Assembly (NCBI RefSeq): GCF_014863605.1
Contig: NZ_CP062252.1
Location: 3,419,001 to 3,483,000 of the forward strand
Source of the DNA: Pseudomonas allokribbensis
GTDB lineage: Bacteria; Pseudomonadota; Gammaproteobacteria; Pseudomonadales; Pseudomonadaceae
Reading direction: 5' to 3'
Length of the DNA stretch: 64,000 bases
Shown here: piece after piece, positions 24,620 to 57,183 of the stretch
Numbering within the stretch: the stretch's first letter is position 1
Layout of the letters: each line of letters opens with the position of its first letter
Program-made: the position numbers and the translations under genes
The notes under the pieces: model-generated
Seen by the model: the letters and a program-made list of their open reading frames with translations, nothing else
What the model was told of the DNA's origin: nothing
Databases searched by the model: none

Positions 24620-24664
24620 ATTCAAACGGGTTCGCCAGGGGGAAACATCGTCCAATGGGACTAG
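24620..24664 (-). promoter_or_regulatory. Steroid-cluster box 1 and promoter of the hsaC operon
   Basis: On the minus strand CTAGTCCCATTGGACGATG occupies 24664-24646 and TTGAAT occupies 24625-24620. The hexamer begins 28 nt after the first G of GGAC, the spacing seen at nearly all other copies. It lies about 97 bp before the hsaC start codon. Confidence 0.75.
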
Positions 24665-24686
24665 CGCAGACCCGGAATACAGGCAT

Positions 24687-24712
24687 AAAAAAACGGGCCT
24701 TGGGGACCCGTT
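24687..24712 (-). terminator. Rho-independent terminator after the LLM gene
   Basis: On the minus strand AACGGG, an inner CCCAAGG-containing loop and CCCGTT are followed by seven T. It separates the luciferase-like gene (ending at 24896) from the hsaC promoter. Confidence 0.7.
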
Positions 24713-24761
24713 GGAAATGGGGACTGGATTCCGTTCCAGACCTTGTGCGCGAGCAGTTGAT

Positions 24762-24872
24762 GATCGTTCCCACGCTCCGCGTGGGAATGCCTCAATGGAC
24801 GCTCTGCGTCCGCTGTTGAATGGGACGCGGAGCGTCCCGGGCTCCATTCCCACGCGGAGCGTGGGAACGATC
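24762..24872. repeat. REP doublet (REPIN)
   Basis: GATCGTTCCCACGCTCCG opens the left unit (24762 onward). The right unit (to 24872) is its perfect 28-bp inverse, ending CGGAGCGTGGGAACGATC. Each unit contains its own GCG-centred palindrome, and two more GGACGC/GCGTCC palindromes (24798-24812 and 24822-24838) lie between. This is the classic Pseudomonas REP doublet. It sits in the LLM-hsaC spacer, downstream of the LLM stop and upstream of its terminator. Confidence 0.85.
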
Positions 24873-24895
24873 AGGTGAGTGCAGTGTGGGAGCTA

Positions 24896-26026
24896 TCACG
24901 CTGGTCCGGATTTGCGGAAATGCGGAATCACCTTCTCGCCAATATTCTTCAACGTCTCCATCTGCGCCCACTGCGGTACGGTGCCCATCTGGCAGATGAA
25001 CAGGATTTCGTCGGCGCCGGCGTCGATCAGTCGCTGCACGTAGCCGATGCAATCCTCGACAGTGCCGTAGGCATGGTTGGGGTTCATCATGGCCATGGTC
25101 GGGTCGGAGAAATCGACGCTGACCTCTTCCGAGGCAAAACGCGACTTGATCACGCTCTGCCCGTTGCCATCGACGAAAGTGTCGTCCTTCCACTTTTCCG
25201 GGTCCGGACGCTCGCCGCCGCCGTACCAGTAACCCAGCGACTCCATGAAATAGCGCTGGCCACGGATGCCGATACGCCGCGCTTCTTCGTTGTTTTCCAG
25301 CACGATCGCCGGGCACAGCGCCGCGATATGACGGTTGGGACGGAAGCCCACCTGGTGTTTCACGTCACGGTTGTCCCAGGCCTGGTGATAGACCTCGACC
25401 TTCTTGGCGATTTCTTCCGGCCCGCCAAAACCCAGCACCAGCGCGCCCATGCCACGGCTGCCAGCCTTTTTCAGCGAGTCGGTGTTGGTGCAAGCCAGGT
25501 ACATCGGCGGGTGCGGATCCTGGTAAGGCTTGGGATGGATCGGCCGTTTCGGAATCTGCACGAAGTCGCCCTGGTGCTCGATTTCGTCGAACACGAACAT
25601 TTTCGGGATCAGGTACATCATCTCGTCGATCTGCGGCTGCAACGTCGTCAGGTCATAGCCGAAGGTGCCGGCCTCCTGCTGGGTGCCACCCTTGCCGACA
25701 CCGAAATGCACCCGGCCCTTGGACAGCAGGTCGAGAGTAGCGATGCGTTCGGCGACTTTCACCGGGTGGTTCATCGCCGGTGGCAGGCAGACCACGCCGT
25801 GGCCGATGCCGATCCGCTCGGTCTTGCCGGCGACGAACGCCAGCATGGTTTCCGGCGCGGACATGTGCGAGTAGTTGCTCAGTGCCGTGTGCTCCACGCA
25901 CCAGAACGTATCGAAGCCCAGTTTGTCGGCCAGCACGGCCTGTTCGACGGTGTCTTCGAAAATCTTGCGATCGCCTTCACGGCTGGAGTCCACCGTCTGG
26001 GCTTCGTAAATCAGGGAAAATTTCAT
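24896..26026 (-). CDS. Luciferase-like (LLM) flavin monooxygenase
   Basis: This 376-aa protein of the bacterial-luciferase superfamily has LADKLGFDTFWCVEHTAL, GKTERIGIGHGVVCLPPAMNHPVKVAER, TLDLLSKGRVHFGVGKGG, GTVEDCIGYVQRLIDAGAD. Members use reduced flavin and oxygen, often on ketones or aldehydes. ATG 26026 starts the conserved beta-strand. The gene is monocistronic, with its own weak steroid box at 26113-26131 and a terminator at 24687-24712, so it seems co-regulated with the pathway. No step of the canonical seco pathway needs it; a Baeyer-Villiger-type or side reaction is only a guess. Confidence 0.8.
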   Translation of the reverse strand: MKFSLIYEAQTVDSSREGDRKIFEDTVEQAVLADKLGFDTFWCVEHTALSNYSHMSAPETMLAFVAGKTERIGIGHGVVCLPPAMNHPVKVAERIATLDLLSKGRVHFGVGKGGTQQEAGTFGYDLTTLQPQIDEMMYLIPKMFVFDEIEHQGDFVQIPKRPIHPKPYQDPHPPMYLACTNTDSLKKAGSRGMGALVLGFGGPEEIAKKVEVYHQAWDNRDVKHQVGFRPNRHIAALCPAIVLENNEEARRIGIRGQRYFMESLGYWYGGGERPDPEKWKDDTFVDGNGQSVIKSRFASEEVSVDFSDPTMAMMNPNHAYGTVEDCIGYVQRLIDAGADEILFICQMGTVPQWAQMETLKNIGEKVIPHFRKSGPA

Positions 26027-26086
26027 GGTTGATCCTTGTACTTGTTGGATGCGCAGCCGGCGCCGGAGAACCACGCCTTCGCGCTA

Positions 26087-26131
26087 ATGCTCGGGCATCC
26101 TCGAGGCGCTCGAATCCTGCAAACGGACTAG
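26087..26131 (-). promoter_or_regulatory. Steroid-cluster box 2 (degenerate) before the LLM gene
   Basis: Minus strand 26131-26113 reads CTAGTCCGTTTGCAGGATT: a perfect left half-site and a poor right half. A weak -10 candidate GAGCAT (26092-26087) keeps the 28-nt spacing. It lies about 87 bp before the start codon. Confidence 0.5.
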
Positions 26132-26150
26132 CCGATTCAGCGCAGTGCGG

Positions 26151-27335
26151 TCAGAGGAAAAAGTCGTTGCTGTCCTGGCCCATGCTCACGGCGCCGAGGT
26201 TCCAGGCGTACTTCGCCGGGCTGTTGGCGACGTGGGCGCGACCGGTGTGAATGTCGCGAAAGGCGCGGTTGATCGGGTGGCTGCGGAAGATCGTCGAGGC
26301 GCCGCTGTTGAACATCAGCTCGCCCACCGCTTTCGCGCATTTGTCGGCTACCCGTGCGGAGTCGTAACGCATCTTCACCCGCTCGGGCATGCTCAGCGGC
26401 TCGGCTTTTTGCGCCCGTTCCAGCATCAAGGCGAAGTTGCGATAGAGCACGGTCTTGCATTCGTCGACGCAGACCATGGCGTTGGCCAGCGCCGATTGCG
26501 CGGCCGGGTCCTGGACCATCTTGCGTCCGTCGTTGACCCCGACCCGTGCGCGGTTGTGTTCGACAAACTGATCCACCGCGCCTTGCAGCGCACCGATGGC
26601 CGCCGACGACACCGCCCGCACGAAAATCTGCCCGAACGGCAGGCGAAACAGCGGTGCGGTGTTCACCGCATTTCCGGGGCTGTTCTGCATGAAACCGTCG
26701 AACGCCCGATGGGTGCGGTACTCGGGGACGAAGGCGTTCTCGACCAGGATGTCGTGAGAGCCGGTGGCTTCGAGCCCCATGACATTCCAGTTATCGAGGA
26801 TTTGGTAGTCACTGCGCGGCACCAGGAACGTCCGGTAATCCGGCGCACCACCGGCCTCTTCCGCCGGCACCAAGGCCCCGAGAAATGCCCATTCGCAATG
26901 CTTGCTGCCGGACGAAAAGCCCCAGCGCCCACTGAGCCTGAAACCGCCCTCCACCCGTTCGACCTTGCCCACCGGCATATAGGAAGAAGAGATCAGCACG
27001 CTGGAGTCGTCGCCCCAGACATCCTGCGCCGCACGGTCATCGAACAGCGCCATCTGCCAGTTATGAATCGCCACAACGCCAAGCACCCAGGCCGAAGACA
27101 TGCAGCCCTCGGCGAGGGTCATCTGCACTTCGAAGAAGTCCTTGGGTTCCAGCTCGTAGCCTTCCCAGCGTGCCGGCTGCAGGATGCGAAAGAACCCCGC
27201 TTCCTGAAAATCCTTCAGGGTCTCTTCCGGCAACTGGCCGGTTTGCGCGGCGTCCAGGGCGCGCTCACGCAGAATCGGTACCAGCTCGCGGGCACGCTGG
27301 CTCAGACGCTGGCGAATCAGGTCTTGGTTGAGCAT
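26151..27335 (-). CDS. hsaA: HsaA-type flavin-dependent 3-HSA monooxygenase, oxygenase component
   Basis: This 394-aa group D flavin monooxygenase has the acyl-CoA dehydrogenase fold: LAEGCMSSAWVLGVVAIHNWQ, LSGRWGFSSGSKHCEWAFLG, VMGLEATGSHDILVENAFVP and a C-terminal RDIHTGRAHVANSPAKYAWNLG. In steroid degradation it hydroxylates ring A of 3-HSA to the catechol using reduced flavin from HsaB. ATG 27335 begins the conserved protein (MLNQDLIRQRL). It is monocistronic and divergent from hsaB across 257 bp that carries two boxes. Confidence 0.9.
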   Translation of the reverse strand: MLNQDLIRQRLSQRARELVPILRERALDAAQTGQLPEETLKDFQEAGFFRILQPARWEGYELEPKDFFEVQMTLAEGCMSSAWVLGVVAIHNWQMALFDDRAAQDVWGDDSSVLISSSYMPVGKVERVEGGFRLSGRWGFSSGSKHCEWAFLGALVPAEEAGGAPDYRTFLVPRSDYQILDNWNVMGLEATGSHDILVENAFVPEYRTHRAFDGFMQNSPGNAVNTAPLFRLPFGQIFVRAVSSAAIGALQGAVDQFVEHNRARVGVNDGRKMVQDPAAQSALANAMVCVDECKTVLYRNFALMLERAQKAEPLSMPERVKMRYDSARVADKCAKAVGELMFNSGASTIFRSHPINRAFRDIHTGRAHVANSPAKYAWNLGAVSMGQDSNDFFL

Positions 27336-27425
27336 TTTTATTGTTCTCCATTGTTCACCCCGTCCGCCGGGGCGCGCGTGCAGCGAGGCACGTGCCGCAC
27401 TTGCGGTGCCTGCCTCCTGTGCGGC

Positions 27426-27471
27426 ATTCAAACAATGTGAAAAGTGCCGGGCATCCCTCAAACGGACCATG
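27426..27471 (-). promoter_or_regulatory. Steroid-cluster box 3 and promoter of hsaA
   Basis: Minus strand 27471-27452 reads CATGGTCCGTTTGAGGGATG. A -10-like TTGAAT (27431-27426), identical to that of hsaC, starts 28 nt after the first base of the right half-site. It is more degenerate than box 4, about 116 bp before hsaA. Confidence 0.6.
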
Positions 27472-27512
27472 TCGGCGATGATCCGAAGCACGTACGCAGA
27501 CCGCCCAAAGGC

Positions 27513-27557
27513 CTAGTCCCCTCGGACGATGCTGCGCAGGCACGCCAGCGCAAAAAT
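27513..27557 (+). promoter_or_regulatory. Steroid-cluster box 4 and promoter of the hsaB operon
   Basis: CTAGTCCCCTCGGACGATG lies at 27513-27531 and an AT-rich -10 candidate AAAAAT at 27552-27557 (28-nt spacing). It is 62 bp upstream of hsaB and is a near-consensus copy. Confidence 0.75.
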
Positions 27558-27592: not shown

Positions 27593-28108
27593 ATGAACGA
27601 CGTCAATCTGAAAGCCGACATGCTCCAGGCCATGCGCCGTCTGGCCAAGTCAGTCACCATCATCAGTACCAGCAACGGCTCCGAGCGTTTCGCCATGGCC
27701 GCCACAGCGGTCGATTCCCTCAGCACCGAGCCGCCATCGCTGCTGATCTGCGTGAACAAGACCGCCTCTTCCCACGCGGCACTGGCCACCGGCGCGGACT
27801 TCTGCGTGAACATCCTCGGCGTCGAACAACAAGGTCTGGCCCATCGCTGCAGCGGTTCGATCAAAGGCGAGGCGCGCTTCGACCAGGGCAACTGGCTGAC
27901 CAGCCCCGGCGGCATTCCGTATCTGAGTGACGCTCAGTCGGCGATACTCTGCCGTCAGGACGGCCACTTCAGCTATGGCACCCACACCGTGTTCATCGGG
28001 CGCATCCTGCAAATCTACACCAGCGACACCATCACCCCGCTGGTCTACCTCGACGGCAGCTACACCACCACCGCCAACCCGGCATCTGCCTTTGCTGCTG
28101 CGGGCTGA
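27593..28108 (+). CDS. hsaB: HsaB-type flavin reductase
   Basis: This 171-aa NAD(P)H:flavin reductase of the split-barrel HpaC/HsaB family has MRRLAKSVTIISTSNG, FAMAATAVDSLSTEPPSLLICVNKTAS, FCVNILGVEQQGLA and a C-terminal DGHFSYGTHTVFIGRI. It supplies reduced flavin to HsaA, whose gene is divergent. It is the first gene of a four-gene plus-strand operon (hsaB, Delta4-dehydrogenase, 3beta/17beta-HSD, kshB). Confidence 0.88.
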   Translation: MNDVNLKADMLQAMRRLAKSVTIISTSNGSERFAMAATAVDSLSTEPPSLLICVNKTASSHAALATGADFCVNILGVEQQGLAHRCSGSIKGEARFDQGNWLTSPGGIPYLSDAQSAILCRQDGHFSYGTHTVFIGRILQIYTSDTITPLVYLDGSYTTTANPASAFAAAG

Positions 28109-28117
28109 GGCCGGGCC

Positions 28118-29797
28118 ATGGACGCTCAACAACAGTTGTCGCCATTGCGTGTGAACAGCGCCGATCAGTTGGACTGGGACGATCGCTGTGATTTGCTGGT
28201 GGTCGGTTTTGGCGGTGCCGGAGCCTGCGCGGCGATTGAAGCGGCCAGTCGCGGCTTGTCGGTGTTGGCACTGGACCGGTTCGCAGGCGGTGGTGCCACG
28301 GCCATCAGCGGCGGCGTCGTGTACGCCGGTGGCGGCACGCCGTATCAGCGTCAGGCCGGCTACGAAGACAGCCGCGACGCGATGTTCAACTACTTGCGCC
28401 AGGAAGTCGGCGAGGCCGTGAGCCCGCAGACCCTGCGCGAATTCTGCGAAGGCAGTTGCGAGCAACTGGCCTGGCTCGAACGCCAGGGCGTGGCGTTCGA
28501 ATCCAGCGTGCCGCCGCACAAGACGTCCTACCCGAGCGACCAGTTCTACCTTTACTACTCCGGCAACGAAGCCGTCCCCGCCTATGCCGCGATCGCCAAA
28601 CCGGCACCGCGCGGCCATCGCACCAAAGGCCCCGGCCTGTCGGGCGCGAGCCTGTTCGCCCCGTTGAAAGCCAGCGCCTTGCGCCTTGGGGCACGCCTGC
28701 GCAGCCAATGCGAAGTCAGGCGTCTGGTGATCGATGCCAATGACCGCGTGGTGGGTGTCGAAGCCTGGCAGTTGCCGACCGGCAGTCGCGCAGCCCGGCA
28801 ACATGCCCGGTTGTCACGCTGGGCCACCGCGATTCACATGTACGCACCGGCAGTGGCGGATCGGTTGCGCAATCGGTTGCGGCGCATTGAACTCGCCAGT
28901 GCCGAACGCCAGTTGATTCGCGCCGACCAAGCCGTGTTGCTGAGCAGCGGCGGTTTTATCTTCAACCGTGAATGGGTCGGTCAGCATGCGCCGCGTTATC
29001 TGCCCGGTTTGCCGCTGGGGACCACCGGTTGCAACGGCAGCGGCATTGCCCTGGGCCAGAGCGCCGGCGGTCGCGTGGCGCGTATGGACAAAGTCAGCGC
29101 CTGGCGTTTCATCAACCCGCCGCTGGCCTGGGCCCGAGGCCTGATCGTCAATGCCCGTGGCGAGCGTTACGCCAACGAAGAAATCTACGGCGCCACCCTC
29201 GGCCACTCGATGGTGGAAGAACAGGACGGCCGCGCCATCCTGATTCTCGACCGGGCATTGGTACGCGAAGCGCTGCGCCAGGTCGGCCCGGGTAAAGTCT
29301 GGGCCTTCCAGCGGTTGCCGGTGCTGCTCAATCTGCTGTTCAACGCCAAACGCAGTCGCAACCTTGCCGATCTGGCAAAGCGCTGCGGATTACCGCCCGA
29401 AAACCTGCAACGCGCCGTGAACACCTACAGCCGCGCCGCACGCGCAGACATCGTTGATCCGTTCGGCAAGTCGCACGCCATGCTCGCCGACATGGATCAG
29501 GGCCCGTGGTACGCCCTCGACCTGTCCTTCGCCAGCCGCCTCTTCCCCTGCCCCGTCATCACCCTCGGCGGGCTGAAGGTCTGCGAAACCAGCGGTCAGG
29601 TGCTGAACCACGCCGACCGGCCGATTGCCGGCCTGTACAGCGCCGGGCGCAACGCGGTCGGGGTCGCTTCGAATCTGTATGTCTCTGGCCTGTCCCTGGC
29701 CGATTGCATTTATTCCGGCCGCCGTGCCGCCGCCCATGTGGCCGAACAACTTGCTGCTCAAACCACACGCTCAGGAGAACAACAATGCAACGTGTAG
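28118..29797 (+). CDS. Probable 3-ketosteroid Delta4-(5alpha)-dehydrogenase
   Basis: This 559-aa FAD flavoprotein of the KstD/fumarate-reductase superfamily has dinucleotide motif LLVVGFGGAGACAAIEAA (residues 26-43) and GGGATAISGGVVYAGGG. It differs from the Delta1-type enzyme at 35033. Near the C-terminus SNLYVSGLSLADC carries Tyr521 and Ser523; Delta4-(5alpha)-dehydrogenase of Rhodococcus uses a Tyr-x-Ser pair (Tyr466/Ser468) as catalytic residues. I therefore favour Delta4 activity (the TesI role), though a 5beta-specific enzyme is possible. It begins 9 bp after hsaB and overlaps the next gene by 13 bp. Confidence 0.72.
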   Translation: MDAQQQLSPLRVNSADQLDWDDRCDLLVVGFGGAGACAAIEAASRGLSVLALDRFAGGGATAISGGVVYAGGGTPYQRQAGYEDSRDAMFNYLRQEVGEAVSPQTLREFCEGSCEQLAWLERQGVAFESSVPPHKTSYPSDQFYLYYSGNEAVPAYAAIAKPAPRGHRTKGPGLSGASLFAPLKASALRLGARLRSQCEVRRLVIDANDRVVGVEAWQLPTGSRAARQHARLSRWATAIHMYAPAVADRLRNRLRRIELASAERQLIRADQAVLLSSGGFIFNREWVGQHAPRYLPGLPLGTTGCNGSGIALGQSAGGRVARMDKVSAWRFINPPLAWARGLIVNARGERYANEEIYGATLGHSMVEEQDGRAILILDRALVREALRQVGPGKVWAFQRLPVLLNLLFNAKRSRNLADLAKRCGLPPENLQRAVNTYSRAARADIVDPFGKSHAMLADMDQGPWYALDLSFASRLFPCPVITLGGLKVCETSGQVLNHADRPIAGLYSAGRNAVGVASNLYVSGLSLADCIYSGRRAAAHVAEQLAAQTTRSGEQQCNV

Positions 29798-30540
29798 AAG
29801 GCAAAGTCTGCATCATCACCGGCGCCGCCAGCGGCATCGGTCGCGAAGACGCCCTGCTGCTGGCCCGCGAAGGCGCCAAGGTGGTGCTGACCGATCTCAA
29901 CGACAGCGCCGGCCGGGAAGTGGCCGCGCAAATCGGTAGCAACGCACTGTTCATCCGTCACGACATCGCCAGCGAAAGCGACTGGCAGAACGTGATCAAA
30001 ACCACCCTGGAACACTTCGGCCGCCTCGACGTGCTGGTCAACAACGCTGCGATTCTGGCGTTGGGCAGCATCGAAGACACCACACTGGAGCTGTGGCAGA
30101 AGGTGCAGAAAATCAACGGCGACGGCTACTTCCTCGGCTGCAAGTACGCGATCCAGGCGATGAAGGAAACCGGCGGCGGTTCGATCATCAACATGTCGTC
30201 GGTGGCGGCGCTGGGCGCGATGCCGATGTTCTGTGCCTACTCGGCATCCAAAGGCGCGGTGGCGGCGATGACTCGCTCGATTGCCTTGCACTGCAAGCAA
30301 CAGGGTTACCGCATTCGCTGCAACAGCGTGCATCCGGACGGGGTCAACACGCCGATGACCCAGGCCCTCACCGGTGGTGTAGCGATCAATCAGCAAGATC
30401 TCGACCAAGACCCGATGAACCGCATGTGCGCGCCGGCCGACATTGCCAATGTGGTGCTGTTCCTCGCCACCGACGAGTCGCGTTTCGTCAACGGAGCCGA
30501 GATCCGCGTCGACAACGCCCAACTGATCAGCGGGCTCTGA
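29785..30540 (+). CDS. 3beta/17beta-hydroxysteroid dehydrogenase-like SDR
   Basis: This 251-aa classical SDR has ITGAASGIGRE (NAD site), NNAAI, NMSSVAALG and the YSASK catalytic motif. It strongly resembles Comamonas testosteroni 3beta/17beta-HSD in several non-catalytic stretches: FIRHDIASESDWQNV, AMKETGGGSIINM, QQGYRIRCNSVHPDGVNTPM and a C-terminus ending NGAEIRVDNAQLISGL. It likely oxidises the 3- or 17-hydroxyl group of the entering steroid. ATG 29785 lies within the end of the preceding gene and has AGGAG about 8 nt upstream. Confidence 0.83.
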   Translation: MQRVEGKVCIITGAASGIGREDALLLAREGAKVVLTDLNDSAGREVAAQIGSNALFIRHDIASESDWQNVIKTTLEHFGRLDVLVNNAAILALGSIEDTTLELWQKVQKINGDGYFLGCKYAIQAMKETGGGSIINMSSVAALGAMPMFCAYSASKGAVAAMTRSIALHCKQQGYRIRCNSVHPDGVNTPMTQALTGGVAINQQDLDQDPMNRMCAPADIANVVLFLATDESRFVNGAEIRVDNAQLISGL

Positions 30541-30553
30541 GGCCGAGGTGAAC

Positions 30554-31639
30554 ATGGGCACGCAACAACAGAACCTGACACCGGCCCAGGCCACAGCGGC
30601 CAGCTACGCCTTGCAAGTGTGCGCGGTGATCGACGAAACCGCCGATGCGCGCTCGCTGGTGCTGGACATACCGCCAGACCTGCGTGAGCGCTTTGGCTAC
30701 AGACCGGGGCAGTTCCTGACGTTTCGCGTGCCCTGTGCCGGCAAGCTGCTGACCCGCTGCTATTCCATGGCCAGTTCGCCGTTGACCGATGAGCAACCCA
30801 AAGTCACGGTGAAACGGGTCGAGGGCGGCCGGGTGTCGAACCGGATGAACGAGGTACAGGTCGGTGACTGGCTGGACGTACTGCCGCCGGCCGGGCATTT
30901 TTGCCTTGATGAGCATCAACCGGATGACGACAAACCTCTGGTGCTGTTCGGCGGCGGGTCTGGCATCACCCCGGTGTTTTCCATTCTGAAATCGACGCTG
31001 CAACGCAGCCGGCGGCCGATCAAGTTGATCTACGCCAATCGCGATGAGGCATCGGTGATTTTCAAGGATGAGCTGCGGCAACTGGCGCAGTCCCATCCGG
31101 AACAACTGCAAGTGGTACACGCGCTCGACTCGGTGCAAGGCTTCCTGACCACCGCCCAAGTGCGCCATTTGCTGAAAGGTTCTGCCGGCGGCGATTACTT
31201 CATCTGCGGCCCGGGCCCGTTCATGGACACCGTCGAACGGACCTTGCTGGAACTCGGAGAAGCGGCTGAACGCATCCACGTCGAACGCTTCGTCTCCCCG
31301 CCCGATCCCGACGAACTGCTGGCTGAAGAAGCCGCCGCCCGGCAAGCCTCCCTTGGCTCGCGCTGCGAATCGCTGGTGGTCGTGCTTGACGGTCAACAGC
31401 ACGAAATTGCCTGTCAGCCCGGCGACACCCTGCTGCAAAGCTGCAAGGCCGCCGGCCTCGACGTGCCTTCGTCTTGCGAAGAAGGTTTTTGCGGTGCCTG
31501 CATGTGCGTCGTCGAGGAAGGCGAAACGCACATGGCCCGCAACGACGTGCTCAGCCCCAGAGAACTGGCCGAAGGCTGGACCCTGGCCTGCCAAAGCCGC
31601 CCGAGCGGCGCACGAGTGCGCTTGAAGTTCCCGGATTGA
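30554..31639 (+). CDS. kshB: KshB-type ferredoxin reductase of 9alpha-hydroxylase
   Basis: This 361-aa electron-transfer protein has three parts. The first is an FNR-like FAD domain (PGQFLTFRVPC, LLTRCYSMASSP), the second an NAD domain (VLFGGGSGITPVFSILKS, DYFICGPGPFMDTVE), and the third a C-terminal plant-type 2Fe-2S domain (PSSCEEGFCGACMCVVEEG plus a later Cys). This FAD-NAD-2Fe2S order is that of KshB. It passes electrons to KshA, whose gene is 12.5 kb away at 44100. ATG 30554 has GAGG 5 nt upstream; the GTG at 30548 is less likely. Confidence 0.87.
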   Translation: MGTQQQNLTPAQATAASYALQVCAVIDETADARSLVLDIPPDLRERFGYRPGQFLTFRVPCAGKLLTRCYSMASSPLTDEQPKVTVKRVEGGRVSNRMNEVQVGDWLDVLPPAGHFCLDEHQPDDDKPLVLFGGGSGITPVFSILKSTLQRSRRPIKLIYANRDEASVIFKDELRQLAQSHPEQLQVVHALDSVQGFLTTAQVRHLLKGSAGGDYFICGPGPFMDTVERTLLELGEAAERIHVERFVSPPDPDELLAEEAAARQASLGSRCESLVVVLDGQQHEIACQPGDTLLQSCKAAGLDVPSSCEEGFCGACMCVVEEGETHMARNDVLSPRELAEGWTLACQSRPSGARVRLKFPD

Positions 31640-31652: not shown

Positions 31653-31697
31653 ATAGTCTCAACGGACGATCTCCCGGGCGCGATCTGCAGTTAGACT
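31653..31697 (+). promoter_or_regulatory. Steroid-cluster box 5 and promoter of the SDR-fadD3 operon
   Basis: ATAGTCTCAACGGACGATC lies at 31653-31671 and TAGACT at 31692-31697 (28-nt spacing from GGAC). It is 69 bp before the SDR start. Confidence 0.7.
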
Positions 31698-36778: not shown

Positions 36779-36852
36779 GCGATCACCCTTGCTCAGCGCC
36801 CTCAAGGCAAAAACCGCCGGCCGGATCTTCGTCCGGCGCGGTCGGTCTCGGG

Positions 36853-36897
36853 ATTGTTGGGCGCGTGTGCCGGGTGGTCATCGTCCGATGGGACTAA
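36853..36897 (-). promoter_or_regulatory. Steroid-cluster box 6 and promoter of kstD
   Basis: Minus strand TTAGTCCCATCGGACGATG lies at 36897-36879 with -10-like AACAAT at 36858-36853, at the same 28-nt spacing. It is 101 bp upstream of kstD and back-to-back with box 7. Confidence 0.75.
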
Positions 36898-36928: not shown

Positions 36929-36973
36929 TTAGTCCGCTTGGACGATGTTGCGCCCGGTGCGTGACCGCATAGT
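36929..36973 (+). promoter_or_regulatory. Steroid-cluster box 7 and promoter of the DUF1302 operon
   Basis: TTAGTCCGCTTGGACGATG lies at 36929-36947 with CATAGT at 36968-36973 (28-nt spacing). It is 93 bp upstream of the DUF1302 gene and 31 bp from box 6 on the other strand. Confidence 0.75.
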
Positions 36974-37039
36974 CGCCCACGGCACCACTTCCCCCCTGAA
37001 ATGCAGGTCGGGCAGGTCCGACCTGGGCATGAGGACGAC

Positions 37040-38617: not shown

Positions 38618-38640
38618 TTCCCCTGTCGGAGGAGCACAGC

Positions 38641-40020: not shown

Positions 40021-40028
40021 ACCCATGA

Positions 40029-40069: not shown

Positions 40070-40096
40070 CAATCTGCACCTTTACGGAAACTGCCC

Positions 40097-44013: not shown

Positions 44014-44033
44014 CATCGTCCATTCAGACGATG
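44014..44033. promoter_or_regulatory. Steroid-cluster box 8, shared by kshA and the divergent SDR
   Basis: CATCGTCCATTCAGACGATG is almost fully symmetric and lies 66 bp before kshA and 58 bp before the SDR. Downstream on the minus strand TCTACT (43993-43988) begins 28 nt after the right half-site. On the plus strand CAGAAT (44053-44058) is at 27 nt. One site apparently serves two promoters. Confidence 0.7.
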
Positions 44034-45275: not shown

Positions 45276-46406
45276 ATGCAGCAGAGCCTCAGCCTCGACA
45301 CGTTCAGCGATCTCATCGGCAACCTGTATCAGGGGCCGCTGGAAACCATTCCCTGGGCGACCTTTCTCAACCAGCTCAACGTTTACCTGAAAAGCAAGTA
45401 CGTGACCTTCATCCTGCGGCCGCCCAGCACCCATGTGGACGGACTGATGGTCAACACTACCGGCACCTCGACCGAAGCGGTCGCCTCGTACAACACGCAC
45501 TTTTTCACCCTCGACCCCTTCGTCGGCCTGCCCAACCGCCAGGTGGTGACCCTCGCCGAATTCGTCTCCAGCGATGACTGGCAGAAATCCGAGTTCTACA
45601 AGAACTTCCTCGAAGCGGTGGACGTGTTCCATATCCTCGGCGCCGACATCAACACCTGCGACGGCGCCCAGTGCCGGATCCGCATCAGTCGCGGCCGGGA
45701 TGACAAGCCTTTTGGCGATGAAGAGAAAACCCTGCTCGCGCATTTCATTCCGCACCTCGAGCGCTCGATCAAGGTTCACATGCAGCTCAACCGCATCGAG
45801 GTCGAACGCAACCTCTACGCCGGCGCGGTGAATCAGATGGCGGTCGGCACGATCATCCTCGACGAAGCCGGCAAAGTGCTGCAGACCAACCAGGTGGCCG
45901 ACCGGTTGATCCAGGAAAGGGACGGCATCAAACTGGTCAACGATGGCCTGCAGGTCGGTACGGACCGCGACACGCAAGAGTTTCGCCGCTTGGTCAAACA
46001 GTCGCTGCTCTCGCAGAAAAGCAGCAACCCGTCGATGGTCGAGGCGCTGCGCGTGCAACGGCCGTCCGGGCGGGCTGACTTGGGCATCATCGTGCGCTCG
46101 GTGCCGCTGTCGGAGTGGAGCGAAGGCAAACAGTGCCCGACCGTGGTGATTTTCATCAGCGACCCGGAGCAACAGTCCACCGCGCCCCAGGAGATCGTCC
46201 GCGCCCTGTTTGACTTCACACCGGCCGAGACCCAACTGGCCATGTTGCTGGCCAACGGGCTGACCCTCGACGAAGCCTCGGAAGAACTGGGCATCAGCCG
46301 CAACACCGCGCGCGCCCACCTGCGCTCGACCTTCTCCAAGACCGGCGTAACCCGCCAGACCATGCTCGTGCGCCTGATCCTGCGCAGCGTGGCCACCCTC
46401 GGCTGA
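45276..46406 (+). CDS. LuxR-type regulator, TeiR/TesR-like
   Basis: This 376-aa protein has a C-terminal LuxR HTH (residues about 315-375: TPAETQLAMLLANGLTLDEA, LGISRNTARAHLRSTFSKTG). It has a central PAS-like region (MAVGTIILDEAGKVLQTNQVADRLI) and an N-terminal part unlike autoinducer-binding domains. Comamonas testosteroni steroid genes are activated by TeiR/TesR, a LuxR-HTH protein of similar size, and this is the only regulator inside the cluster. It is the obvious candidate to bind the recurring boxes. No box is seen in its own upstream region. Confidence 0.82.
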   Translation: MQQSLSLDTFSDLIGNLYQGPLETIPWATFLNQLNVYLKSKYVTFILRPPSTHVDGLMVNTTGTSTEAVASYNTHFFTLDPFVGLPNRQVVTLAEFVSSDDWQKSEFYKNFLEAVDVFHILGADINTCDGAQCRIRISRGRDDKPFGDEEKTLLAHFIPHLERSIKVHMQLNRIEVERNLYAGAVNQMAVGTIILDEAGKVLQTNQVADRLIQERDGIKLVNDGLQVGTDRDTQEFRRLVKQSLLSQKSSNPSMVEALRVQRPSGRADLGIIVRSVPLSEWSEGKQCPTVVIFISDPEQQSTAPQEIVRALFDFTPAETQLAMLLANGLTLDEASEELGISRNTARAHLRSTFSKTGVTRQTMLVRLILRSVATLG

Positions 46407-46420: not shown

Positions 46421-46440
46421 CATCGTCCGCCCGGGCGATG
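46421..46440. other. Symmetric box-like palindrome after the LuxR gene
   Basis: CATCGTCCGCCCGGGCGATG lies 15 bp after the luxR stop and 14 bp before box 9. It could be a second regulator site or the stem of a terminator (GCCATCG/CGATGGC ends pair). I cannot decide between the two. Confidence 0.4.
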
Positions 46441-46454: not shown

Positions 46455-46499
46455 CTAGTCCATTCAGACGAAGCCGAATATCTCGCGCCGCCCTACCTT
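46455..46499 (+). promoter_or_regulatory. Steroid-cluster box 9 and promoter of the 55-aa gene
   Basis: CTAGTCCATTCAGACGAAG lies at 46455-46473 with TACCTT at 46494-46499 (28-nt spacing from AGAC). It is 62 bp before the start codon of the small gene, the same distance as for hsaB and the SDR at 50537. Confidence 0.7.
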
Positions 46500-46535
46500 G
46501 CCTCTACAACAATAAAAAACCGTATGAGGCCCGCG

Positions 46536-46703
46536 ATGCGTAATTCCACCTGCGCCCTGCTCCTGATCGTCTGCGTCGGCAGTTCCGTCAGCCTGTGTCA
46601 GTTGTTCAGAAACGAAGCCTATCGACCGAGCACTGCGCTCCTCGGTTGTTCGAGCACGGCGGTCAACTGCTACCCGCCGCTGGTGCGCAATCTGCTCCCA
46701 TAA
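46536..46703 (+). CDS. 55-aa exported or membrane-anchored Cys-containing small protein
   Basis: ATG 46536 has GAGG 6 nt upstream and runs 55 codons to TAA 46701-46703. The N-terminus (MRNSTCALLLIVCVGSSVSL) is a basic start plus a 16-residue hydrophobic core like a signal peptide or single membrane helix. The remainder holds two more cysteines (LLGCSS, VNCYPP) and ends LVRNLLP. I know no family. It has its own box-type promoter and a strong terminator just downstream, so it is probably a real co-regulated gene of the steroid cluster. Confidence 0.65.
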   Translation: MRNSTCALLLIVCVGSSVSLCQLFRNEAYRPSTALLGCSSTAVNCYPPLVRNLLP

Positions 46704-47803: not shown

Positions 47804-47816
47804 GGTCATTCTCCAC

Positions 47817-48725: not shown

Positions 48726-48743
48726 CCGGTTAAACCCCACGGG

Positions 48744-50405: not shown

Positions 50406-50450
50406 ATTATTTGCGCAGGCCGGGCCAGCAACATCGTCCGACAGGACTAG
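50406..50450 (-). promoter_or_regulatory. Steroid-cluster box 10a and promoter of hsaD
   Basis: Minus strand CTAGTCCTGTCGGACGATG lies at 50450-50432 and AATAAT at 50411-50406, a five-of-six match to TATAAT at exactly the 28-nt spacing. It is 58 bp before hsaD. Confidence 0.8.
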
Positions 50451-50455: not shown

Positions 50456-50500
50456 CTAGTCTTTTCGGACGTTGGCCGCCGGGGGCCGCACACCTAGCAT
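50456..50500 (+). promoter_or_regulatory. Steroid-cluster box 10b and promoter of the SDR-SRPBCC unit
   Basis: CTAGTCTTTTCGGACGTTG lies at 50456-50474 and TAGCAT at 50495-50500 (28-nt spacing). It starts 6 bp from box 10a, facing the other way, 62 bp before the SDR start. Confidence 0.7.
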
Positions 50501-52216: not shown

Positions 52217-53419
52217 TCAGACCACCTCGAACAGTGCTGCAGCGCCCATGCCGCCACCGATGCACATGCTCACCACGACGTAACGCAAACCACGGCGCTG
52301 ACCTTCGATCAAGGCATGGCCGACCATCCGCGCCCCGGACATGCCGAACGGATGCCCCAGCGCAATCGCCCCGCCGTTGACGTTCAACCGCTCCTGGGGA
52401 ATGCCCAGCGTGTCGCGGCAATACAGCACCTGACAGGCAAACGCTTCGTTCAGCTCCCACAGGCCGATGTGATCCATGGTCAGGCCCTGACGCTTGAGCA
52501 ACTTCGGAATGGCGTAGATCGGGCCAATGCCCATTTCATCGGAGTTGCAACCCGCGACGGCCATCCCACGATAAATCCCCAAGGGCTCCAGCCCGCGTTT
52601 CTCGGCCAGTTTGGCGCTCATCAACACCGAGGCCGATGCGCCGTCGGACAGCTGCGAGGCGTTACCGGCGGTGATGAAACGGCCCTTCTCGGTCCATTCG
52701 CCGCCGGCCCAGACCGGTTCCAGTGCGGCGAGATTTTCGCGGGTGGTGTCGACGCGGTTGCACTCGTCGCGTTGCAGGCTGAGGGTTTCAAAGCGGGTTT
52801 CGCCCGTGGCCTTGTCAAAAATCGCCTTGCGGCTGGTCATTGGCGCCAGTTCCCGGTCGAACAACCCGGCACTCTGGGCCAGCGCGGTACGTACCTGACT
52901 CTGGTAGCTGTACTCGTCCTGTTCCTCGCGGCTGATGCCGTAGCGGGCGGCGACGATCTCGGCGGTTTCAATCATCGGAATGTAAGCGTGCGGATCGCGT
53001 TCGAGCACCGCCCCGGACTGGTTGCGATAGAGGTTCTTGTGCTTGTTCTGCACCAGCGAAATCGATTCCAGGCCACCGGCCACCGCGATGTCGATTTCGT
53101 CGCACATGATGCTTTTCGCAGCCATGGCGATGCTCATCAGCCCCGAGGAACATTGGCGTTCGACGGCCATGCCCGACACGGAAAACGGTAAACCGGCGGC
53201 AATCGCGCACTGTCGGCCGAGGTTATAGGACTGCGTGCCCTGCTGCGCCGCCGCGCCGATGATCACGTCGTCCACTTCACCGGGCTCGATGCCGGCCCGG
53301 CGCACGGCTTCGCGCACCACATGGCCGCCAAGCAGCGGCGCTTCGGTGTCGTTGAATGCACCGCGAAAGGCTTTGCCGATCGGGGTACGGGCGGTCGAAA
53401 CGATGACGGCTTCTTTCAT
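52217..53419 (-). CDS. Acetyl-CoA acyltransferase (thiolase)
   Basis: This 400-aa thiolase has nucleophile Cys90 in [21 protein letters not shown], the [17 protein letters not shown] histidine motif and [14 protein letters not shown] with the second Cys. It is a complete degradative thiolase, the second in the cluster. ATG 53419 overlaps the MaoC stop (ATGA). Its neighbours (MaoC hydratase, IpdF, two ACADs) suggest a full beta-oxidation round on a ring C/D or residual side-chain acyl-CoA. Confidence 0.87.
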
Positions 53420-53904
53420 GCGGGACTCCTCGAAGGTGCTGCTGAATCTTGCGGGTAGTAGCGGCTGATGGTGTCGACCACGCAGCCGGGGCGTTCTTCG
53501 CCGTCGATCTCGACGCTGACGCGGATGGTCGCCTGGATGCCGCCCTTGACCTCGTCGACGGCCATCAACTGCGCACGACCGCGCACACGGGCACCCGCCG
53601 GCACCACCGTGGGGAAGCGCACGCGCTCGCAGCCATAGTTGACGCCCATGGCGATGCCGCGAACCTCGACGATCTGCGGCAGAAACAGGTTGACCAGCGA
53701 CAGGCTCAGGTAACCGTGGGCGATGCAGCCGCCAAAGGGTCCGCTGGCAGCCTTGAGCGGATCGACGTGAATCCACTGATGATCGCCCGTGGCATCCGCG
53801 AACTGATTGATCCGGTCTTGCGCCAGCAACAGCCAGTCGCTGACGCCCAACTCTTCTCCCACTGCATCGCGCAGGGCGAAAGGCGTGTCGAAAATACGCG
53901 GCAT
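53416..53904 (-). CDS. MaoC-like (R)-specific enoyl-CoA hydratase
   Basis: This 162-aa hot-dog-fold hydratase has the catalytic Asp/His pair in [15 protein letters not shown] and the following [14 protein letters not shown]. Single-domain proteins of this kind hydrate enoyl-CoAs, forming homodimers. It is preceded 1 bp away by the ipdF-like gene and overlaps the thiolase start. It probably serves the same beta-oxidation round as its operon neighbours. Confidence 0.82.
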
Positions 53905-53905
53905 G

Positions 53906-54688
53906 TCACGCCCTCTGGCTGGAGACCGACAACACTTCGCCGGTCATGTAGGAGCTGTAGTCGCTGGCCAGGAACATCATCACATTGGCCACTTCCCAGA
54001 CTTCGGCGGCGCGGCCGAAGGCTTCGTTGGCCGCCAGTTGATCGAGTACGGCCTGCGGCGCGGATTTGCGCAGGAAATCGTGCAAGGCAATGCTCGGGCT
54101 CACCGCGTTGATGCGGATCCCGTAGTCGGCGGCCTCGACCGCTGCGCAGCGGGTCAACGCCATGACTCCGGCCTTGGCAGCGGCGTAGTGCGCCTGCTCT
54201 TTCTGCGCTCGCCAGCCGAGCACCGACGCGTTGTTGACGATGACCCCGGCGCGGCGCTCCATCATCTTCGGCAGCATGGCGCGGGTCATGCGCATGGTGC
54301 CGGTCAGCGTCACATCGAGGACTCGGCTCCACTGCTCATCGGTCATCTCCACCAGCAACGCCGAACCGCCGAGACCGGCGTTGTTGATCAGCACATCGAC
54401 GCCTTCAAGGTCACGCTCGGCGCAGGCGATCAGCTGTTGCACCTGGGCTTCGTCGGCAACGTTGCAGACTTGCCCGAAAACTTGCTGCAGGCCGCTGGCT
54501 TCGCGGATTTTCAACACCGCTTCGGCCAGACGCCCTTCATGGATATCGCTGATCATCAAGGCGCGACAGCCCTCCTCGGCAGCCCGCAGTGCGGCGGAAA
54601 AACCGATACCGGCGCCGGCCGCTGCGGTGATCAGTACAGACTTGCCACGCAGCAGGCCGTGGCCTGCAACATAGTGAGGAACAGACAT
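53906..54688 (-). CDS. ipdF: IpdF-like SDR dehydrogenase
   Basis: This 260-aa SDR has the unusual cofactor motif ITAAAGAGIGFSAALRA (TAAAGxGIG instead of TGxxxGIG), also found in Mycobacterium IpdF (Rv3559c), plus NNAGLGG, NASVLGW, YAAAK and the final SVSSQRA. IpdF oxidises the 5-hydroxyl of 5-OH-HIP-CoA-type intermediates. Context (next to FadE30-like ACAD) matches the mycobacterial fadE30-ipdF neighbourhood. Confidence 0.82.
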   Translation of the reverse strand: MSVPHYVAGHGLLRGKSVLITAAAGAGIGFSAALRAAEEGCRALMISDIHEGRLAEAVLKIREASGLQQVFGQVCNVADEAQVQQLIACAERDLEGVDVLINNAGLGGSALLVEMTDEQWSRVLDVTLTGTMRMTRAMLPKMMERRAGVIVNNASVLGWRAQKEQAHYAAAKAGVMALTRCAAVEAADYGIRINAVSPSIALHDFLRKSAPQAVLDQLAANEAFGRAAEVWEVANVMMFLASDYSSYMTGEVLSVSSQRA

Positions 54689-54701
54689 GGGAACTCCTTG
54701 A

Positions 54702-55895
54702 TCACACAGAAAGGCGTGGCTCTTTGGGCATGCCCAGGGCACGCTCGGCGATGATGTTGCGCTGGATCTCGTTGCTGCCGCCGTAGAGGGTGTCGGCGCG
54801 GCTGAACAGGTAAAGCGATTGCAGACGCGTGAGCTGGTAAGGCGCGGCTTCGAGCAGTTCGGCGTCGGCGCCGAGGACGTCCATCGCCAGCTTGCCGAGG
54901 CTGGCGTGCCACGTGGACCAGAACAGCTTGTAGATGGTGGCTTCCTTGCGCAGCGAACCGTCCTGCGCCCCCGACAGCATGCGCAGCGAGTTGTAGCGCA
55001 TGATCCGCAGACCGCTCCAGGCCTGGGCCAGACGCTGGCGCAGGACCGGATCGCGCGCGGCGCCATTGGCCCGGGCGATGCCGATGATCTCGTTCAACTC
55101 ATTGTGAAACTGCATCTGCTGGCCGAGTGTCGACACCCCGCGCTCGAAACCGAGCAGCGCCATGGCGATCTTCCAGCCCTCGCCGGGCAGGCCGACGATA
55201 TTCGCGGCCTCGGTGCGGGCGTCGTCGAAAAACACTTCATTGAATTCCGAGGTGCCGGTCAGTTGCTCGATCGGTCGTACCGTGATTTCGGCCTGCGCCA
55301 TCGGCACCAGCAGGAACGACAGGCCGCGATGGCCGACACTGCCGGGCTCGGTGCGGGCCAGCACGAAGCACCAGTCCGATTCATGGGCCAGCGAAGTCCA
55401 GACTTTCTGCCCGTTGATGATCCAGCTGCCGCCGTCCTGATCCAGCGTGGCCCGGGTCTTGACGTTGGCGAGGTCCGACCCGGCGCCCGGTTCCGAATAA
55501 CCCTGGCACCAGAACGCCGTGCCGCTGACGATGCCCGGCAAAAAGCGCTGTTGCTGTTCGGCGCTGCCGAAAGCGGCGATGGTCGGGCCGGCCAAGCCTT
55601 CGCCGATATGGCCCATGCGTCCCGGGCCGCCAGCGCGGGCGTACTCTTCGTGGAAAATCACTTGCTGGCTGATCGACAGGCCACGGCCACCGTGCTCCGG
55701 GGCCCAGCCCACGCAGGTCCAGCCGCCCTCGGCGAGTTTGCGTTCCCAGGCTTTGCGCTCCTCGGGGAACATGTGTTCATCGCCGGGGCCGCCACGAAAA
55801 CGCAGGGCTTCGAACTCACCGCTGAGGTTGACGCGCAACCAGTCGGCCACTTCCTGTCGGAAGTGCTCATCGTGTTCGCTGAAACTGATTTTCAT
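54702..55895 (-). CDS. Acyl-CoA dehydrogenase (FadE30-like)
   Basis: This 397-aa ACAD has GGRGLSISQQVIFHEEYARAG, QGYSEPGAGSDLANVKTRA, NGQKVWTSLAHESDW and YGGSNEIQRNIIAERALGMPK. The stop of the upstream ACAD overlaps its ATG (55892-55895), suggesting a heteromeric enzyme. The adjacency to ipdF suggests the HIP-CoA or 5-OH-HIP-CoA dehydrogenation step. ATG 55895 starts the conserved protein; an open frame extends to 56192 but lies inside the other gene. Confidence 0.83.
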   Translation of the reverse strand: MKISFSEHDEHFRQEVADWLRVNLSGEFEALRFRGGPGDEHMFPEERKAWERKLAEGGWTCVGWAPEHGGRGLSISQQVIFHEEYARAGGPGRMGHIGEGLAGPTIAAFGSAEQQQRFLPGIVSGTAFWCQGYSEPGAGSDLANVKTRATLDQDGGSWIINGQKVWTSLAHESDWCFVLARTEPGSVGHRGLSFLLVPMAQAEITVRPIEQLTGTSEFNEVFFDDARTEAANIVGLPGEGWKIAMALLGFERGVSTLGQQMQFHNELNEIIGIARANGAARDPVLRQRLAQAWSGLRIMRYNSLRMLSGAQDGSLRKEATIYKLFWSTWHASLGKLAMDVLGADAELLEAAPYQLTRLQSLYLFSRADTLYGGSNEIQRNIIAERALGMPKEPRLSV

Positions 55896-57064
55896 GGCTG
55901 CTCCCCCAGAATCGCCTCGGCGATACGCTCCAGATGCCAGGCCGGCAGCCCGAGAAAACTCTCGCTGGCGCGGGCGCGTTTGAAATAGAGGTGCACGTCG
56001 TATTCCCAGGTGAACCCGACCCCGCCGTGCAATTGAATGGCTTCCGAGGCGCAGTGAAAGAAGGTTTCCGAGCAATGGGCCTTGGCCAGTGCTGCCGCTG
56101 TCGGCAACTCGCCGGCCACCTGCGAATCGCCTTCGGGATCGAGCACTTCCTGGGCGACGCAGGCCGCGTAATAACTGGCCGAACGCGCACATTCCACTTG
56201 CAGCATCATGTCGGCGGCACGGTGTTTGAGCGCTTGGAAACTGGCGATCGGTCGGCCGAACTGCTGGCGCTCCTGCATGTAGGCAACGCTCAGATCCAGC
56301 ACCTGTTGCGCGCCACCGGTCTGTTCGCAGGCCAGGGCGATGCAGGCCAGTTGCAGTGCGCGCTCAAGGTGCGGCCAGCCCTTGCCGAACTCGCCGAGCA
56401 GGCATTGAGCGTCGAGGTACACGCCGTTGAGTCGAATCCGTGCCTGACGGCGGGTCTGGTCCATGGTCGGCAACATCTGCCGTTCGATCCCGGGTTGATC
56501 GGCGTCTACGGCGAACAGGCTGATGCCTTCCTCGCCAACAGATCCGGGCAGCCGCGCAGCGATGATCAGCAGGTCAGCGCCATGCCCGTCGAGCACGTGA
56601 TTGAAGGTGCCGTTGAGCACAAAACCGTCGCCCTCCTTCACTACCGTGGCCTGCACGTCTTCGGCGGCCCGGCCGTTGGCACTGCTGAACGCCAACGCTG
56701 CGGTGACGCGGCCATCGGCAATCAACGGCAGCCAGCGCTGCTTTTGTTGATCGTCAGCGGCCAGCATCAGCGCCGGAGTAGCCATGCAGGCAGTTGCAAA
56801 GAAAGGGGAACACAGCAAGCGCCGGCCCATCTGTTCCAGCAGAATCCCCAACTCAACAAAACCGAGCCCCAGACCGCCATAGGCTTCGGGAATATGAATC
56901 GCGGGCCAGTACATCTCGCTGCACAGACGCTGCCACAGCGCCTCGTCGAAACCCCGTTCACTGATCATCGCCGCGCGCACGGCGGCAGAATCCGAGACAT
57001 CTGCCAGAAAACTTTCGGCCGATTCACGGATCATTTCCTGTTCGTCGCTGAATGCAAACTCCAT
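55892..57064 (-). CDS. Acyl-CoA dehydrogenase, partner subunit
   Basis: This 390-aa ACAD has PEAYGGLGLGFVELGILLEQMGR, ERQQFGRPIASFQALKHRAADM, LHGGVGFTWEYDVHLYFKRA. The last motif is shared with the 351-aa ACAD at 16976, so both pairs have the same two-subunit design. It is the first gene of the operon that ends with ksi. The box-like site at 57165-57183 is about 100 bp upstream. Confidence 0.83.
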   Translation of the reverse strand: MEFAFSDEQEMIRESAESFLADVSDSAAVRAAMISERGFDEALWQRLCSEMYWPAIHIPEAYGGLGLGFVELGILLEQMGRRLLCSPFFATACMATPALMLAADDQQKQRWLPLIADGRVTAALAFSSANGRAAEDVQATVVKEGDGFVLNGTFNHVLDGHGADLLIIAARLPGSVGEEGISLFAVDADQPGIERQMLPTMDQTRRQARIRLNGVYLDAQCLLGEFGKGWPHLERALQLACIALACEQTGGAQQVLDLSVAYMQERQQFGRPIASFQALKHRAADMMLQVECARSASYYAACVAQEVLDPEGDSQVAGELPTAAALAKAHCSETFFHCASEAIQLHGGVGFTWEYDVHLYFKRARASESFLGLPAWHLERIAEAILGEQP

Positions 57065-57164
57065 CGCGGCGCCTTCTACTCGTCTGGCGGAGCACCCGTG
57101 AAGTGGTGCTCCTTTGAGTAGCAAGTCTGGTCCGGGCGGTGCGCGACAGAATCGTCAGGCTTGC

Positions 57165-57183
57165 CTAGTCCGAATGGAGGTTG
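57165..57183. promoter_or_regulatory. Steroid-cluster box 11 (degenerate or reversed)
   Basis: Plus strand CTAGTCCGAATGGAGGTTG has a perfect left half-site but a poor right half. Relative to the minus-strand ACAD gene it points the wrong way, and no -10-like hexamer sits at the usual spacing. It may still be the control site of the ACAD-ksi operon because the core dyad is symmetric. Confidence 0.4.

Follow-up and report, generated by a model that had tools for sequence, protein, structure and literature searches.

The 64-kb stretch of Pseudomonas allokribbensis DNA analysed here (the window) carries a steroid-degradation gene cluster in which a 19-bp dyad, CTAGTCC-N4-GGACGATG, recurs ahead of the genes. 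These dyads very probably serve as operators for the LuxR-type regulator encoded in the cluster itself (45276..46406, plus strand), a TeiR/TesR-like protein that would activate transcription from a position near -42 (class II activation). From hsaC to the acyl-CoA dehydrogenase genes, and with the operons predicted from gene order, 13 promoters would be served in this way, each with a dyad reading toward its gene. The luxR gene sits 132 bp after kshA, and the HsaC-, HsaB- and hsaD/E/F/G-type genes around it identify the region as a steroid-degradation cluster. The kshA product has KshA_C and Rieske Pfam domains; the NCBIfam scores for HsaC and HsaB lie below their curated cut-offs, and the name kstD comes from a general FAD family and from an earlier note on this DNA, in which 12 copies of the dyad had been listed.

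When up to 3 mismatches were allowed, the dyad was matched 14 times in the window against 1.26 matches expected, two dyads being counted on both strands (44014/44015 and 46421/46422), and none of 100 shuffles reached 14. The 12 copies listed before are real, since 11 of them are among the 14 matches and the other, at 27452, is supported by 13 of 14 genomes. The half proximal to the promoter is usually GGACGATG and the distal half CTAGTCC. A matrix built from 11 window sites gave scores of at least 16 at 12 places in the window and at none in 20 background stretches, each of 20 kb, taken from this genome; as the matrix was trained on the window, only the background rate counts as a test. Outside 24646-57183 nothing in the window scored 12 or more (the best place, at 3273, scored 11.1), in agreement with the earlier statement that no copy precedes panB, the ABC operon or eboD.

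The distance from the dyad to the -10 hexamer was nearly fixed. Counted from the first base of the right half-site, offset 28 gave a mean -10 score of 3.24 over 11 window sites, compared with -2.98 for the next best of the 52 offsets, and 0 of 20,000 circular shifts reached the offset-28 score. The hexamer at 28 was the best or second-best place in 10 of the 11 sites, and that of kshA (CAGAAT) stood at 27. Since this test used the sites of the earlier note together with kshA, the independent support comes from other lineages. Five sets of sites (88, 45, 15, 10 and 9 sites) were compared, in which the hexamer offset had played no role in the choice of sites and of which the 88-site set includes the window: the offset peaked at 28 in three sets and at 29 in two, with a good hexamer at the best offset in 33-60% of the sites per set versus 1-4% at other offsets. 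The earlier claim that the -10 begins at exactly 28 nt was right in that offset 28 stands alone over the 11 sites, but the overall spacing is 27-29 and the plus-strand copy at 57165 has no -10. A strict 28-nt spacing was rejected, with kshA at 27 and the Cupriavidus and Endozoicomonas/Marinobacter sets peaking at 29. If the hexamer begins at -12, a right half-site 28 nt ahead of it puts the centre of the dyad at about -42. At the -35 place, matches to TTGACA were at random level (2.54 over 13 promoters against 2.34 at random places, with 4 of 6 matching in two of the 13), which bears out the idea that the dyad stands in place of a -35 box. On sequence, then, the promoters have the features of class II activation, namely an operator centred near -42 over the -35 position and no -35 box of their own. 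The lux box of LuxR-type class II activation is also centred near -42.

Of the 298 Pseudomonas genomes, 23 had a close LuxR orthologue (79-100% identity), the genome of the window (G000, 6.57 Mb) among them. We scanned 22 regions, the window and 21 of the other 22 orthologue genomes, leaving out G232 because the gene there adjoins the start of its contig. For eight genes (hsaB, SDR31, kstD, DUF1302, SDR43, kshA, hsaD and SDR50), 140 of the 141 mapped orthologous promoters kept a dyad scoring at least 12 toward the gene, and all 140 had a fitting hexamer at 27, 28 or 29. Between representative genomes (6-14 per promoter) the half-sites were 0.84-1.00 identical, compared with 0.29-0.66 for the 20 bases upstream; the 20 bases between dyad and hexamer were 0.28-0.64 identical and the hexamer at 28 was 0.66-1.00 identical, except in the plus orientation of 57165 (0.28).

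A genome scan and a comparison with other steroid clusters had been proposed in the earlier note, and the outcome of both favours a steroid regulon. The degenerate consensus NTMGTCYNNNNRGACGWWG had 12 exact matches in the genome of the window, and its reversed control 5. Nine of the 12 lie in the cluster, two of these being both strands of the kshA/SDR43 dyad; the remaining three lie inside long open frames, two of them gyrB-like and rluD-like by eye. Across the 298 genomes the number of exact matches followed the LuxR family, with means of 14.0 (10-22) in the 23 orthologue genomes, 9.3 (1-15) in 30 genomes with only a ~37-42% LuxR relative and 2.2 (0-6) in the 245 others, which include G149 with its 26% relative. 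The reversed control was flat (means 6.0, 6.9 and 7.0, respectively). Genome-wide counts with mismatches were rejected as a test: the reversed control outnumbered the motif once mismatches were allowed (544 versus 241 with 3 mismatches, 180 versus 77 with 1), and therefore only exact consensus matches discriminate. The sites, their spacing, their conservation and their co-occurrence with the regulator family are directly observed.

The predicted regulator combines a GAF-like N-terminal domain, a PAS-like middle part and a GerE helix-turn-helix (HTH), the last with a Pfam match of 26.2 bits against a cut-off of 23.5. A GerE-type C-terminal HTH was present in all 59 aligned family members (E up to 0.01), and the longest run of invariant columns in the family alignment lies in the HTH. 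The protein can be placed in the TeiR/TesR family on its full-length relationship to TeiR of Comamonas testosteroni (38% identity, 372 columns, E 3e-97), and despite this overall identity its recognition helix, RNTARAHLRS(I/T)FSKTGV, is nearly identical to that of TeiR. The GerE HTH, together with the motif number that follows the LuxR family, supports the earlier reading of a LuxR-type activator. Pfam gave no match to the autoinducer-binding domain, which we take to be PF03472, in the window LuxR or in the 59 members, and the protein is not classed as an acyl-homoserine-lactone receptor. The AlphaFold model of the window LuxR had a pLDDT of 76.1 and a pTM of 0.50, and a PDB sequence search with the protein found no match. 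The cluster open reading frames (ORFs) scanned, with small ORFs covered in part, showed no further regulator family, which agrees with the earlier description of the LuxR-type protein as the only in-cluster regulator. GntR-type and LysR-type regulators are encoded at 11989-14892, beside ABC genes and a ketopantoate hydroxymethyltransferase gene, outside the dyad-marked cluster.

The dyad was not confined to the orthologous clusters. We scanned 20 further stretches, 18 of them in eight Pseudomonas genomes with 35-42% relatives (some of them peripheral pieces of one and the same cluster) and, in G277 and G204, two around 69% paralogues. These stretches held homologues of the steroid-type genes found in the window, and at least one place in each of the 20 scored 13 or more. 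Sites scoring at least 16 were counted in all 80 loci (range 0-10), of which 14 were viewed in detail. Dyads were present in loci of Endozoicomonas, a Marinobacter metagenome-assembled genome (MAG), an Oceanospirillaceae MAG, Stutzerimonas stutzeri K1, P. resinovorans and Cupriavidus (LuxR 48-79%), and, in line with the comparison proposed earlier, the motif with a 28-29 spacing recurred beside 38-61% identical LuxR proteins in other genera. The luxR gene itself has a weak site reading toward it in the Cupriavidus loci, and palindromes stand ahead of luxR in those of Endozoicomonas. The exact matches in Cupriavidus lay around luxR, 5 of 5 within 53 kb in G666 and 4 of 5 within 47 kb in G667; in G668 there were 5, on two contigs.

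The case nearest to a characterised protein is G521, where LuxR and C. testosteroni TeiR (Q6URL0) share 97% identity. This genome has 10 exact matches, eight of which fall in the interval 2756737-2864128 around luxR, and dyads with hexamers at 28 stand ahead of an hsaC(tesB)-like gene, a row of hsaA/kstD-like genes and an SDR pair. A class-wide search (369 genomes) found 36-38% relatives in one further genome, G521, and otherwise weak relatives of 23-33%; in a Burkholderiales search (399 genomes) relatives were found in four, the central genome G666 itself, G957, G917 and G765, the last of which, judged by its identical coordinates, is the same genome as G521.

Several genomes held more than one LuxR protein. 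In G277 and G204 (L169, L170) a second cluster with DUF1302/DUF1329 genes has the 69% LuxR paralogue and the same dyads. Four LuxR paralogues lie within 58 kb in Cupriavidus G666 and four occur in G957, three of them on C2 beside steroid-type genes (L256, L312-L314), which suggests several regulators reading similar operators.

A candidate variant operator was found in G225, which has a steroid-type cluster, a 39% LuxR relative and an altered recognition helix, RNTARTHLRAIFAKAGV. The canonical dyad had 1 exact match in this genome, and scores stayed at or below 12.1 throughout the scanned 33 kb of its cluster. In its stead CTACTGCANNCGG(T/A)T(G/C)ATG, a variant equal to the dyad in length, stands at three places, before kstD-, DUF1302- and hsaD-like genes, and a fourth copy, with CATGAT at 28, stands ahead of genes that are hsaE- and hsaG-like by eye. 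The variant pattern CTACTGCANNCGGTTGATG, read by eye from three cluster sites, was not commoner genome-wide in G225 than its reversed control (36 versus 41, up to 3 mismatches). The cluster holds both exact matches and two of the four 2-mismatch matches, and only the one at C21:74952 is independent of the writing of the pattern. A switch of specificity in G225 is a possible reading of a single case found after the fact.

The activation mechanism that we propose runs as follows. When a steroid or an intermediate of its degradation is present, a LuxR dimer would bind the 19-bp dyad centred at about -42, take the place of the missing -35 box and recruit sigma-70 RNA polymerase, which would thereby be placed on the -10 hexamer 27-29 nt past the start of the right half-site. 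Because the SDR43/kshA-luxR dyad has two proximal-type halves, one dimer could serve both directions there, and because luxR follows so closely on kshA, the same site could feed back on luxR. Binding, activation, operon structure, ligand and autoregulation are all predictions drawn from the DNA and protein sequences.

Some observations weigh against direct activation by the LuxR protein. The weak sites at 26113, 27452 and 57150 match the consensus poorly and have conservation as their sole support, and the one mapped promoter without a dyad is that of kstD in G193, a 60% homologue. Because the Pseudomonas promoters are related by descent, their number is not a number of independent observations. 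Among the 53 carriers of the regulator or a relative, six had 6 or fewer exact matches (G106, G217, G223, which is 73% complete, G225, G265 and G285), and three of the 245 non-carriers had 6 (G039, G202 and G293). The reversed pattern is commoner than the motif where there is no such LuxR (7.0 versus 2.2), and therefore only the difference between groups and the location of the matches carry weight. The Cupriavidus sp. BIS7 locus (L263) has a single site scoring at least 16, and the count is 0 or 1 in certain other loci. Finally, TeiR has been reported to be a kinase that associates with the membrane and lies at the cell pole (Göhler 2008, as cited in the available text of PMC6678751, PMC8700777 and PMC8399759), which makes an indirect action possible.

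Such an indirect action would mean that a different DNA-binding protein sits on the dyad while the TeiR-like LuxR acts upstream through a kinase cascade. TeiR has a borderline hydrophobic stretch (Kyte-Doolittle 1.65), and the fold lists include sensor-kinase entries such as WalK-YycH (9a5d) and bacteriophytochromes; the fold matches, however, lie for the most part within residues 1-295 of the model, a GAF/PAS part that sensor kinases have in common with many other proteins, and no kinase family is among the 17 Pfam families matching any of the 59 members, all of which have GerE. The longest invariant run of the family falls in the HTH and the window LuxR has no membrane-like stretch (0.99), while motif number tracks the LuxR family over 298 genomes and, in one case seen after the fact, G225, a change in the helix coincides with a change in the motif. 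We consider a kinase cascade improbable. The same dyads could be operators of a repressor that blocks RNA polymerase until steroids release it. They do cover the -35 region, where many repressors sit, and a LuxR-type repressor of 3,17beta-HSD is reported for C. testosteroni in the available text of PMC8700777. Yet the promoters lack a -35 match, as expected where transcription depends on an activator, the near-fixed distance to the -10 in five site sets is a demand of polymerase contact and not of steric block, and genetic work makes TeiR/TesR, the closest relative that has been characterised, a positive regulator according to the portions of the literature available; repression is very unlikely.

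Intergenic DNA of Pseudomonas is rich in short inverted repeats, and the dyads might be mobile or structural elements (repetitive extragenic palindromic-like repeats or terminator hairpins) with no regulatory meaning. This is hardly credible for repeats that are oriented toward the gene, keep a near-fixed distance to the -10 and are conserved where their flanks drift, and it is already contradicted by the genome scan, with 9 of 12 exact matches in the cluster.

The predicted operators can be followed along the cluster. That of hsaC, the extradiol dioxygenase gene (23653-24549), is an exact consensus at 24646..24664 (minus strand) with its -10, TTGAAT, at 24620-24625; the dyad and TTGAAT or TTAAAT at 28 were conserved in 9 of 9 mapped genomes. 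A weak operator with 3 mismatches (26113..26131, minus; -10 GAGCAT) precedes a luciferase-like monooxygenase gene (24896-26074). In 14 of 14 mapped genomes its left half is (C/G)TAGTC(C/T), with GAnnAT at 28, and in all 14 its right half differs from GGACGATG. LLM-type enzymes are under study for progesterone in Caenibius (available text of PMC12239570). The hsaA operator (27452..27470, minus; -10 TTGAAT; hsaA ORF at 26151-27491) is divergent in sequence and too weak to be picked up in the window with 3 mismatches allowed. Its form, (A/C)TGGTCCGTTTGAGGGATG and then, past 20 variable bases, TTGAAT at an offset of exactly 28 nt, was matched in 13 of the 14 genomes with a mapped HsaA, the single miss being G027; within 160 bp of the hsaB dyad it was found in 6 of 14 places, and without the distance limit in 13 genomes. 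The hsaB-FAD-SDR-kshB genes (27593-31639) have an exact consensus at 27513..27531 (plus; -10 AAAAAT), whose halves are 100% identical across 6 representative genomes, compared with 36% for the upstream DNA, and 9 of 9 mapped promoters keep the dyad.

Further along, the SDR gene at 31740 and an AMP-binding (acyl-CoA ligase-type) gene follow an operator at 31653..31671 (plus; -10 TAGACT; 15 of 15 mapped). The kstD-SDR34 genes (34167-36805) have theirs at 36879..36897 (minus; -10 AACAAT; 18 of 19 mapped, with the miss in G193), and the DUF1302-DUF1329-SurE genes (37001-41047) at 36929..36947 (plus; -10 CATAGT; 17 of 17 mapped). The dyad at 44014..44033 is a symmetric 20-bp sequence, CATCGTC(T/C)NNNN(G/A)GACGATG, between divergent promoters: SDR43/esterase/ribBA on the minus strand, with TCTACT at 28, and kshA-luxR on the plus strand, with CAGAAT at 27. 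Its halves are identical in 14 of 14 representative genomes and the hexamer is conserved on either side; a dyad toward the gene was found at 19 of 19 mapped SDR43 promoters and 21 of 21 mapped kshA promoters. The hsaD-hsaE-hsaG-hsaF genes (46769-50374) have an exact consensus at 50432..50450 (minus; -10 AATAAT; 21 of 21 mapped), and the SDR gene at 50537 an operator at 50456..50474 (plus; -10 TAGCAT; 20 of 20 mapped).

The last operator had been misassigned in the earlier note, where the copy at 57165 was listed. The working operator appears to be the minus-strand site at 57150..57168, CTAGGCAAGCCTGACGATT, with CAGACT at 28, ahead of two acyl-CoA dehydrogenase genes with SDR and thiolase genes behind them (52217-57124); acyl-CoA dehydrogenase Pfam domains are present in the genes under this operator. 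The position of the dyad and CA(A/G/C)ACT at 28 were conserved in 19 of 19 mapped genomes, and the left half takes the canonical form, CTAGTCC or CTCGTCC, in G193, G278 and G027. A second dyad (57165..57183, plus) overlaps it by CTAG. Its halves are 0.84 identical in 10 representative genomes and the downstream plus-strand DNA 0.28; as this DNA is unconserved and has no -10, the plus copy was rejected as a working promoter element, and the overlapping minus copy fits instead.

The dyads after luxR are less uniform than the others. An additional one, absent from the earlier list, lies directly 3' of luxR (46421..46440). It precedes a NUDIX-type gene (NudE-like by eye) in G046, G135, G242 and G129, the four other orthologous clusters with ORFs listed; in the window that gene is missing and the dyad remains, 33 bp ahead of the next one. 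The latter, at 46455..46473 (plus; -10 TACCTT), precedes a small gene at 46524-46703 (plus), and a dyad of this type was not found in G193, G278 and G027. The small ORF encodes about 55-60 aa with no Pfam match and ends in CYPPLVRNLLP, an end common to 4 of 5 genomes compared and divergent in G242. The product may be exported, as a small protein belonging to the steroid regulon. TniQ-like and integrase/Mu-type transposase genes at the window's left end (2049-5968) hint at a transposon adjoining the region.

Among known systems, the closest are TeiR (C. testosteroni ATCC 11996) and TesR (TA441), LuxR-type positive regulators of testosterone degradation with the same location in a steroid cluster and a nearly identical recognition helix. 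The likeness extends to the same dyad and -10 spacing in G521, whose LuxR is nearly TeiR itself; the difference is that TeiR was reported as a membrane/polar kinase. In the available text of PMC6678751, PMC8700777, PMC6895838 and PMC13101464, TesR/TeiR is a genetic activator of C. testosteroni steroid genes, and induction of three gene sets, tesB-tesR, tesA1-tesG and tesA2-ORF18, depends on TesR (PMC6895838). In P. stutzeri Chol1, deletion of one of two TeiR-like genes delays cholate degradation (unpublished data mentioned in PMC8399759, in the part available); the same text describes the regulation of bile-acid degradation in Proteobacteria as largely unknown and TeiR as signalling through a kinase. 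We found no TeiR/TesR operator in the literature searched, where subscription papers are mostly absent, and a search for the motif letters gave only unrelated texts among the matches listed.

LuxR-type class II activation shares with the window an inverted repeat of about 20 bp that replaces the -35 box. Lux boxes differ in half-site sequence, and the window protein differs in having a GAF-like and PAS-like N-terminal part without an autoinducer-binding match. VqmA and EL222 (PDB) also have a PAS followed by a GerE-type HTH (Foldseek E 3.8e-06 for VqmA, the best, and 1.9e-05 for EL222), but the window protein has an extra GAF-like domain in front, and whole-model TM-scores are low (0.20-0.22). 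As in the actinobacterial KstR/KstR2 regulons, one operator type marks the steroid regulon, although KstR and KstR2 are TetR-type repressors, unrelated proteins reported, in the available text of PMC8399759, as absent from bile-acid-degrading Proteobacteria. EdcR of Caenibius tardaugens likewise has a palindromic operator in a steroid (estrogen) cluster; it is a repressor, and its palindrome has another sequence and lies over the -10 box (PMC8700777, available text).

A LuxR-type class II regulon is a known kind of system, and what appears new, as far as the literature searched goes, is the TeiR/TesR operator and its reach across genera. Our judgement is evenly poised on the wider proposal that a single 'TeiR box' operator code would run through proteobacterial steroid regulons (Pseudomonas, Endozoicomonas/Marinobacter, Cupriavidus and Comamonas-like), its readers being ligand-sensing activators of GAF-PAS-HTH build that are direct binders of promoters and not kinases, with symmetric sites at divergent promoters, asymmetric sites at one-way promoters, and at least one Pseudomonas lineage, G225, that would have switched helix and operator together. 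One paper passes on an earlier report that tesR-like genes are restricted to C. testosteroni (PMC6895838, in the part available), whereas 23 of the 298 Pseudomonas genomes have a close orthologue of the window's TeiR-like gene and another 30 have a 37-42% relative. The dyad makes the mode of action of TeiR testable by one footprint, and it offers a sequence handle that predicts regulon members genome by genome and candidate steroid-responsive promoters for biosensors.

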